In this document: piece after piece, positions 824 through 3,613 of the stretch
How positions within the stretch are numbered: position 1 is the first letter of the stretch
How the letters are laid out: each line of letters opens with the position of its first letter
Source of the DNA: a virus
DNA: 22,567 nt
IMG/VR virus record: IMGVR_UViG_3300025072_000059
Coordinates: 1-22,567 of that record
Strand: one strand, 5' to 3'
Translations under genes and position numbers: made by a program
The notes under the pieces: generated by a model
Databases searched by the model: none
What the model was told of the DNA's origin: nothing
Seen by the model: the letters and a program-made list of their open reading frames with translations, nothing else

Positions 824-955
824 TTATTTAAATAATCTAGTGATTATTATGATTTGTAATACTAAGACAGTAATACCAGTTAATGTTCTTATAAATTCCA
901 TTAAATGATTATATCTATCTAATTTTCTTTCTATTTTATATCTTATATTTTTCAT
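824..955 (-). CDS. Small single-span membrane protein
   Basis: This 43-residue reading frame starts MKNIRYKIERKLDRYNHLME. It then has a hydrophobic segment around residues 26-38 (TGITVLVLQIIII) and a short basic end (TRLFK). The layout suggests an inner-membrane protein with a charged amphipathic N-terminal helix. Its ATG lies 1-2 nt after the closing stem of the first structured RNA unit (957-1017), so that RNA could influence its translation. No family is recognised. Confidence 0.55.
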   Translation of the reverse strand: MKNIRYKIERKLDRYNHLMEFIRTLTGITVLVLQIIIITRLFK

Positions 956-956
956 A

Positions 957-1017
957 CCACGAAAAGCCCATACTGATCAAGTATGAGCTAACATTAAATT
1001 CAACGTTGGTTCCGTGG
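957..1017 (-). ncRNA. Structured RNA unit 1 of a tandem array (three-way junction)
   Basis: Read on the minus strand: a closing stem CCACG/CGTGG, an internal stem AACGTT/AATGTT, then a second stem AGCTCATAC/GTATGGGCT followed by TTTTCGTGG. The same plan occurs at 1060-1152 and 1207-1302. This copy has the shortest variable arm and abuts the start codon at 955. Strand is inferred from the surrounding genes. The structure would also form on the plus strand. Confidence 0.65.
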
Positions 1018-1059
1018 AGATGTTTTCCGCGGCTCTGGATCCGATCCTGTTATCATCTA

Positions 1060-1152
1060 CCACGAAAAGCCCGTACCATTTACGGTACGAGCTACATAGT
1101 CCTGATGATGGACTCAAAAGTCTGACATTCAGAGCAGTTGCTATGTTCGTGG
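1060..1152 (-). ncRNA. Structured RNA unit 2 of a tandem array (three-way junction)
   Basis: Same layout as unit 1: closing stem CCACGAA/TTCGTGG, then a long variable arm closed by CATAG/CTATG. That arm contains two hairpins, TCTGA/TCAGA and AGTCC/GGACT. The conserved arm AGCTCGTACC/GGTACGGGCT follows. In this arm the A-T pair seen in units 1 and 3 is replaced by G-C on both sides, a compensatory change that supports an RNA structure. Confidence 0.65.
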
Positions 1153-1206
1153 GCACGCTTGTTTGTTTTTGGATCAAGTTACAGTATCACACTCATACCC
1201 GCGCTA

Positions 1207-1302
1207 CCACGAAAAGCCCATACTGTCCCTCGAATGACTGGTCGTCGAGTTCTGTGTATGAGCTACCGAGTTGCGGTGAGCCGCTTTCGGTTGTCGTTCG
1301 TG
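1207..1302 (-). ncRNA. Structured RNA unit 3 of a tandem array (three-way junction)
   Basis: The closing stem is CACGAA/TTCGTG. The variable arm is CCGA/TCGG enclosing GCGG/CCGC. The conserved arm AGCTCATAC/GTATGGGCT carries an enlarged tip with an inner CTCGA/TCGAG hairpin. It is the most upstream unit in the leftward direction and clearly more GC-rich than its surroundings. No T7-like promoter element directly precedes it. Confidence 0.6.
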
Positions 1303-1355
1303 TAAATAAAGGGATAGAACTGGTTATTTTTTATACTATCTTTGGTCCAGACTCT

Positions 1356-1442
1356 TTATTCGTAATATTTATCTAATAGTTCTAATGCCACTTCGTGACT
1401 TATTCTATTTTCGTTATATAATTTCCATATCAATTTCTTCAT
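1356..1442 (-). CDS. Possible 28-residue small protein overlapping the upstream gene
   Basis: This short frame reads MKKLIWKLYNENRISHEVAL and ends LLDKYYE. It starts inside the 3' end of the 1414-1701 gene in another frame (29-nt overlap). The charged, helical composition looks like a real phage mini-protein rather than a random frame. There is no Shine-Dalgarno sequence and no family match. Confidence 0.4.
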   Translation of the reverse strand: MKKLIWKLYNENRISHEVALELLDKYYE

Positions 1443-1704: not shown

Positions 1705-1968
1705 TTAATCTAATAATACCATATAGGCTTCTGGGTTATTTACTCTAAACCACATTAATGCTTTATCAAAATCTTTAATTTGTTTATCAGTAACTTGAAA
1801 TTGGCCAAAAACTATTTGACTACCAATTATAAAGTCATATAAACTTAATTCTAGTGCATTTAATTCGTAAGTTTCTCCACTGAATGGGTTTTTTACTTCT
1901 CCACCTTCGGAGTAGATCTGTCCTTCAAACCATTTAGGCATTTTCTGTTTCTTCGTTTTCGTACTCAT
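1705..1968 (-). CDS. Conserved phage protein, PKWFxGxxYxEGGxVxNPFSGE family
   Basis: This 87-residue protein carries MPKWFEGQIYSEGGEV and NPFSGETYELNALELSLYDF in its N-terminal half and ends ALMWFRVNNPEAYMVLLD. These blocks recur in unrelated aquatic phages as a small protein of unknown function (recognised from memory). It overlaps the acidic 151-residue gene by 35 nt. An alternative start at MPKWF (residue 10) would shorten the overlap and matches the usual family start. Confidence 0.75.
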   Translation of the reverse strand: MSTKTKKQKMPKWFEGQIYSEGGEVKNPFSGETYELNALELSLYDFIIGSQIVFGQFQVTDKQIKDFDKALMWFRVNNPEAYMVLLD

Positions 1969-3541: not shown

Positions 3542-3613
3542 TAACTTGGAGAGGAATCGAACCTCTCAACTCGTCAGTTAGTTTGGACCTTTGGCTCCAA
3601 TCCATCTCAAGTT
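3542..3613 (-). tRNA. tRNA-like gene with degenerate anticodon arm
   Basis: The 72-nt element has a good acceptor stem, AACTTG paired with CAAGTT, plus an A-C mismatch at the seventh pair and A as discriminator base. Its T arm is canonical: AGAGG, loop TTCGATT, CCTCT. A short D-like arm TGG/CCA encloses ATTGGAG, which has the usual GG. The anticodon arm does not fold canonically. The possible stems (TTGGA/TCCAA and ACT/AGT) leave 8-nt loops, so I cannot assign an amino acid. It may be a decayed tRNA or a tRNA mimic. No CCA is encoded. Confidence 0.4.

Follow-up and report, generated by a model that had tools for sequence, protein, structure and literature searches.

The window, a stretch of 22,567 nucleotides (positions 1 to 22,567 of the IMG/VR record IMGVR_UViG_3300025072_000059), carries between two genes of an uncultured phage an array of three similar RNA frames, each closed by a stem of the type CCACGAA/TTCGTGG and furnished with different folded inserts (957-1303, minus strand, in the sense of the flanking genes; Table 1). 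At 48.1%, its GC content stands well apart from the 30.1% of the window, as had been predicted for a GC-rich region in an A/T-rich genome, and no other sampled 347-nt stretch is as rich. In folding, the minus strand lies 6.1 standard deviations below its shuffled counterparts and the plus strand 2.5. The region, as the original prediction would have it, encodes no believable protein: stops interrupt all minus-strand frames, and the inserts vary in both length and sequence among phages.

The window contains exactly three copies of the arm that defines the array (AGCTCxTAC/GTAxGGGCT), whereas none of 100 dinucleotide shuffles contains any. The variable arms reported beside it (AACGTT/AATGTT, CATAG/CTATG and CCGA/TCGG) are all present on the minus strand, and where units 1 and 3 have an A-T pair, unit 2 indeed has G-C. 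Three other elements of the original prediction need amendment. The common closing stem is perfect in unit 2, but unit 3 has an outermost A-G mismatch and unit 1 (CCACGGA) one G-U pair. There are three units, but they are not bare tandem copies, being separated by linkers of 52 and 39 nt, each with a recurring structure of its own. Finally, the frame is more general than a three-way junction, which is one of its states: the side arm is an interchangeable insert that is missing in several units.

Table 1. Coordinates of the features of the array and of related elements in the window
Feature	Position	Strand	Remarks
Small ORF upstream of the array	1356..1442	minus	ends in LLDKYYE-stop
Unit 3 of the frame	1207..1303	minus	P1 ACACGAA/TTCGTGG; P2 AGCTCATAC/GTATGGGCT
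Unit 3, slot-1 insert	1265..1296	minus	module C (CGACAACCGAAAGCGGCTCACCGCAACTCGGT)
Unit 3, slot-2 insert	1224..1255	minus	folded
Linker of units 3 and 2	1153..1204	minus	module F; own three-way junction, strong covariation
Unit 2 of the frame	1060..1152	minus	P1 CCACGAA/TTCGTGG; P2 AGCTCGTAC/GTACGGGCT
Unit 2, slot-1 insert	1095..1145	minus	module I
Linker of units 2 and 1	1019..1057	minus	module H (ATAACAGGAT...CGGAAAACA); read by eye
Unit 1 of the frame	957..1017	minus	
Small ORF downstream of the array	837..955	minus	39 codons plus stop, ATG one base past unit 1; from sequence
tRNA-like element	3543..3613	minus	acceptor AACTTG/CAAGTT, T arm GAGAGGTTCGATTCCTCTC; lacks a normal anticodon arm

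When scanned with the Rfam 15 covariance models, as the original prediction had advised, the array matched no described RNA family at the curated scores, and raising the E-value to 10 brought in only implausible matches far below these cut-offs. It is not a tRNA by ARAGORN or Rfam, which find no cloverleaf with an anticodon arm, nor does it qualify as an intrinsic terminator (a GC-rich hairpin with a T run), yielding one weak match, in unit 2 only, where shuffles average 0.4.

Distribution and covariation of the frame

The terminase encoded in the window is similar to those of phages of Flavobacterium, Cellulophaga, Tenacibaculum and Maribacter, with the environmental record MW202828 being closest (61% identity) and Elemovirus and Cellulophaga phages being the nearest cultured relatives. 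Early-region proteins compared between the window and other contigs are about 33-71% identical. The phages bearing the array appear to form an uncultured clade with kinship to flavobacterial podoviruses, and it is from the likeness of the terminase alone that a Flavobacteria-like host is deemed probable. Many genes in this group are preceded by a promoter- or start-site-like repeat, AACTAAATACGATnACTAATrGATAATATnAATATG, seen at 4060-4020 (minus strand) of the window as well as in numerous gaps between the genes of related loci.

The exact 3′ core of the frame, GTANGGGCTTTTCGTGGTA, was recovered in 37 IMG/VR stretches and had no match in 257 Gb of bacterial and archaeal genomes. Using a pattern looser than this exact core, together with related loci, we curated 54 units, which come from some 38 phage contigs and include 29 distinct versions of the frame. 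The array and its modules had no relative in annotated phage and plasmid collections, where one search matched tRNA-Met only; in the related loci, the only Rfam 15 matches were true tRNAs. A pattern built from P2 alone was discarded, as it returned mostly chance matches. The core of the CCACGAA frame was found in 0 of 50 other relatives, and the frame appears restricted to one subclade. Within it, contigs carry one to four units, always in one orientation; one or two units, placed at differing gene junctions, are the rule for most phages. The tandem trio singled out by the original prediction is thus a particular instance, and inserts are also found in other RNA frames.

The frame consists of a 7-bp closing stem (P1) and a 9-bp arm (P2) that abuts it, with the 3′ strands usually joined by one unpaired U. 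Across the 29 distinct rows, 95.7% of 462 cells are paired, a percentage that is biased upward by the choice of the 5′ strand of P1 by complementarity, partly by hand, while the constancy of the 3′ strand is partly imposed by its inclusion in the search pattern. Three pairs have changed on both sides, namely P1 pair 1 (C-G to A-U, in L066 only), P1 pair 2 (C-G to U-A) and P2 pair 6 (A-U/G-C); the covariation of the frame is modest. The one-sided changes that preserve pairing are of the G-U type on the minus, gene-sense strand, and the U-G pair of P2 is kept in 53 of the 54 units; hence, an RNA of the array strand is favored over a DNA hairpin or an RNA of the other strand. Two-sided compensating changes exceed the controls modestly in the frame and strongly in module F, described below. 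The prediction of a structured RNA of no known class, which had been staked on covariation in related phages, therefore survives, with 54 related units, covariation and no Rfam match.

The relationship of the units to the flanking genes raises the principal alternative to the reading that we favor. Since 43 of the 54 units end at most 4 nt from an ATG, they could be cis-acting intercistronic elements, in which P1 would zip the gap from the stop codon of one gene to the start codon of the next. A terminating ribosome might open P1 and restart, or an RNase might cut there and the structure protect the downstream mRNA, with the modules either tuning the effect or being mere passengers. Such a role fits the operon sense of all units and the class of units typified by L074, in which the 5′ strand of P1 is itself the end of the upstream gene (TAC TAC GAA TAA, encoding Y-Y-E-stop) and a compensating change has made the 3′ strand TTCGTAG; the same LLDKYYE-stop ending as in the ORF upstream of the window array is found in the gene that precedes units of the CTACGAA type in L004, L016, L074 and L167. 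However, the remaining 11 units lie farther from a start codon, some being then followed by the usual intergenic repeat; the neighboring genes differ; and the same modules occur in tRNA-derived and long noncoding RNAs, where a cis role makes little sense. On balance, we consider a cis-acting element somewhat less probable than the reading that we favor, and its main competitor.

Exchange of modules between slots and junctions

Slot 1 lies between P1 and P2, and slot 2 is the loop of P2; each holds either a short loop or a folded module. About 16 recurring folded modules populate the slots and linkers, under letters and boundaries that are our own and were drawn partly by eye. A given module may be placed at different junctions: O is seen in both slots, F and H between units, and F also before P1 (L002 and L035). 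Modules may even be nested, with D lying within N in L008 and part of E within L in L020. In the window array, module C of unit 3 has a close form in L004 and, outside the frame, in L228 and L242, and module I of unit 2 is 96% identical over 49 nt to the insert of a tRNA-derived frame in L187. Module H recurs, by eye, in slot 1 of L016, and, despite the divergence of the early-region proteins, the last 38 nt of unit 1 with the start of the next gene are identical at 38 of 38 positions in L006. For the slot-2 insert of unit 3, no relative was found.

A single gene junction, represented by 22 units, displays 11 slot-1 states and 15 combinations. Naturally empty junctions also exist, both in L155 and in most of the 80 loci compared, and since many relatives lack a unit at a junction where others have one, none of the units is indispensable on its own. 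One upstream gene can also be found with differing genes downstream of it, the 3′ end of the unit being identical. As a separate observation, a hot spot after the orthologues of the window gene at 1705-1968 (minus strand), in L168-L247, holds nothing, a tRNA, the CCACGAA frame or another folded RNA.

This coexistence of filled and empty junctions, and of one upstream gene with differing downstream genes, would also be expected of a selfish or recombination element devoid of RNA function, be it a mobile palindrome of small size or a common linker that lets gene cassettes and inserts recombine. A dispersed selfish repeat should nevertheless occur in many copies and both orientations, which is not the pattern of the frame, and module F has one strong copy per genome. 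Further, the compensating, pairwise changes of the stems beside unchanged loops are explained by selection on RNA and not by mobility. We accordingly judge a purely selfish element to be quite improbable.

The strongest structural proof comes from module F. In its 10 distinct versions, drawn from several settings, 140 of 140 cells are paired and eight of the 14 pairs have changed on both sides, with a covariation score that 0 of 500 shuffles reached; the loop GAGTGTG, the joint GTAA and the segment AAAAACA are invariant. Its covariance model scores 76-81 bits in 12 of 76 sources and has no match in 442 kb of unrelated phage loci, and its pattern was absent from bacterial genome contigs. Strong matches come one per genome, in six of 33 contigs with the frame and six of 45 without it. 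Module O, in five versions across frames, behaves in the same way, with compensating stems and kept loops. Its conserved loop ACUCAGGGAGGAGAU (e.g., in L019, L035, L220 and L238) contains a Shine-Dalgarno-like GGAGGAGAU. Two structural likenesses were rejected: module M as a GAAA tetraloop-receptor (CCUAAG...UAUGG in L031), as the pairing, inspected by hand, is missing in L012 and a hairpin accommodates both copies, and P2 as domain V of a group II intron, as the pairing register differs and there is no domain VI.

The same modules in unrelated RNA frames, including pseudo-tRNAs

With 50 module queries at an E-value of 0.001, modules were found in 24 places outside the frame, or 22 once L021 and L176, which are partial frame units at contig ends, are left out; shuffled queries gave 0 places in 20 rounds. 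These 22 places exceed the number of independent events, as some contigs were reached twice (e.g., L187/L249, L219/L248 and L241/L251) and module F itself served to retrieve six of the loci. Other frames with the same modules were seen in loci that had been fetched solely via a neighboring protein (alignment A3).

The recipients are of several kinds. In the L240 type, an element GAGAGGTTTAAGG...CCTCTC carries modules. A second type reads by hand as a pseudoknot, ACGAGGTRAGGGTGGT...GGCAGGATAAAGCA...ACCACACCTGCCCGACCTCGT, and its two slots hold modules N, C, B-like and others; this frame (GTGGT..GGCAGG..ACCAC..CCTGCC) is seen in L210:1630-1800, L223, L228, L231, L236 and L241. The third is a tRNA-derived frame, GGGCGTGAAATGGTTAG-[insert]-CGCAGGTTCGATTCCTGCCACGTCC, in which 14 different inserts replace the anticodon arm. 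Such pseudo-tRNAs share one conserved acceptor/D-loop/T-arm frame (L174, L187, L189, L192, L195, L196, L199, L204, L207, L219, L234, L238, L240, L246 and L252). An acceptor stem and a T arm with a TTCRA loop are present in the frames of L187, L234 and others, and across seven sequences pairing is complete (100%) in the acceptor and T stems, where two-sided changes affect five pairs. In the loci tested, the pseudo-tRNAs were called by neither ARAGORN nor Rfam. The window array is not itself of this type, its P2 having no T loop. The tRNA-like element at 3543-3613, likewise not called by either program, represents in the window a relative of the pseudo-tRNAs that kindred phages carry. In related phages, noncoding clusters of about 450-500 nt end in or near pseudo-tRNAs. 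Separately, a 93-nt folded RNA lies between a stop codon and a tRNA-Gly gene (L171:1325-1417), and its core is 95% identical in L230:1306-1386.

Comparison with known systems

Several known elements invite comparison. The single RNA of the phi29 packaging motor, pRNA, is a compact three-way junction like the frame, but Rfam reveals no sequence relation between the two. Short palindrome-bounded intergenic sequences are also known as REP/BIME, ERIC and MITE-like repeats; the array resembles them in being palindrome-bounded, intergenic and present at several junctions, and differs from them in its few copies, single orientation, RNA covariation and variable inserts. A search of open-licence papers for modular phage RNAs, pseudo-tRNAs or such module exchange found nothing, which is weak evidence.

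ROOL and GOLLD are phage RNAs without an established function that are encoded near tRNAs and form cages from RNA alone; in GOLLD, the 3′ part is conserved and the 5′ part less so (PMC12286853). Like the array, they are phage-encoded structured RNAs, in their case often near tRNAs, but they resemble it in neither sequence nor structure, and the array units are much smaller and have inserts in common with unrelated frames. One could envisage the units as parts of an RNA-only assembly of this kind, the modules serving as contacts between RNA copies, and both the precedent of such cages (PMC12286853) and the noncoding clusters with pseudo-tRNAs in related phages would be in line with it. Yet the ROOL and GOLLD models of Rfam do not match the window or the related loci, most units are stand-alone and 60-100 nt long, and no loop-loop partner was identified. 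We give this possibility slightly less weight than a selfish origin.

RNA anti-CRISPRs (Racrs) are phage-encoded solitary RNAs that resemble CRISPR repeats (PMC10651486), and are akin to the array in being small phage RNAs thought to act on host defense; Racrs copy CRISPR repeats, whereas the array is comparable in idea only. As a special form of the display that we propose below, the modules might mimic the repeats of several host systems, as Racrs do (PMC10651486), and several have a repeat-like length and closing stems. However, the closing stems of modules change freely while repeats are conserved throughout, and the modules searched had no match in plasmids or bacterial genomes. We consider such mimicry very improbable.

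A further parallel is an engineered one, the tRNA scaffold, in which a foreign folded RNA replaces the anticodon arm (PMC3753655). The 14 inserts of the pseudo-tRNAs occupy this very position, but the phage frames are natural, and the frame of the window array lacks a T loop.

A proposed role in displaying modules to host factors

The anatomy of the array in itself (frames, slots and shared modules) we regard as close to certain. From the structure, strand, module sharing, exchange and clade restriction observed above, we infer the excision, stability, binding and target of the array RNAs as follows. The frame of P1 and abutting P2, with folded inserts in two slots and between units that are exchanged among gene junctions, phages and unrelated frames (including the pseudoknot-read and tRNA-derived ones), may act like a natural tRNA or three-way-junction scaffold. 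The product would be a compact RNA, resistant to nucleases and probably excised, on which one or several modules are displayed; their invariant loops may bind host factors, such as defense proteins or RNA-handling enzymes. The fast exchange of modules could then be an answer to variable hosts. The original suggestion of a nuclease-resistant or protein-binding RNA is in this respect possible.

Conserved loops on freely changing stems, the single copy per genome and the exchange between unrelated frames argue for selection on what the modules present, and the tRNA-derived frames suggest processing into discrete RNAs. On these grounds, we favor a modular phage RNA system that displays exchangeable modules on stable frames for host-factor binding, with a probability of roughly 0.4 for this statement as a whole. 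What counts against it is the closeness of most unit ends to a start codon, since a trans-acting RNA needs no such thing, and the dispensability of each single unit.

Domain shuffling is commonplace in proteins, but we know of no natural RNAs whose folded domains pass in this way from one frame to another, unrelated one. It is conceivable, if somewhat more tentatively, that these phages possess a viral combinatorial RNA system, in which a shared pool of modules recombines among unrelated frames (three-way junction, pseudoknot and tRNA elbow) to give stable, trans-acting RNAs directed at host factors, as an RNA counterpart of modular protein effectors. If the modules do bind host factors, the phages would be a source of natural RNA binders, about 30-55 nt in size, whose loops have been singled out by conservation. 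The tRNA-derived frames, in which an insert takes the place of the anticodon arm, would be nature's forerunner of the engineered tRNA scaffold.
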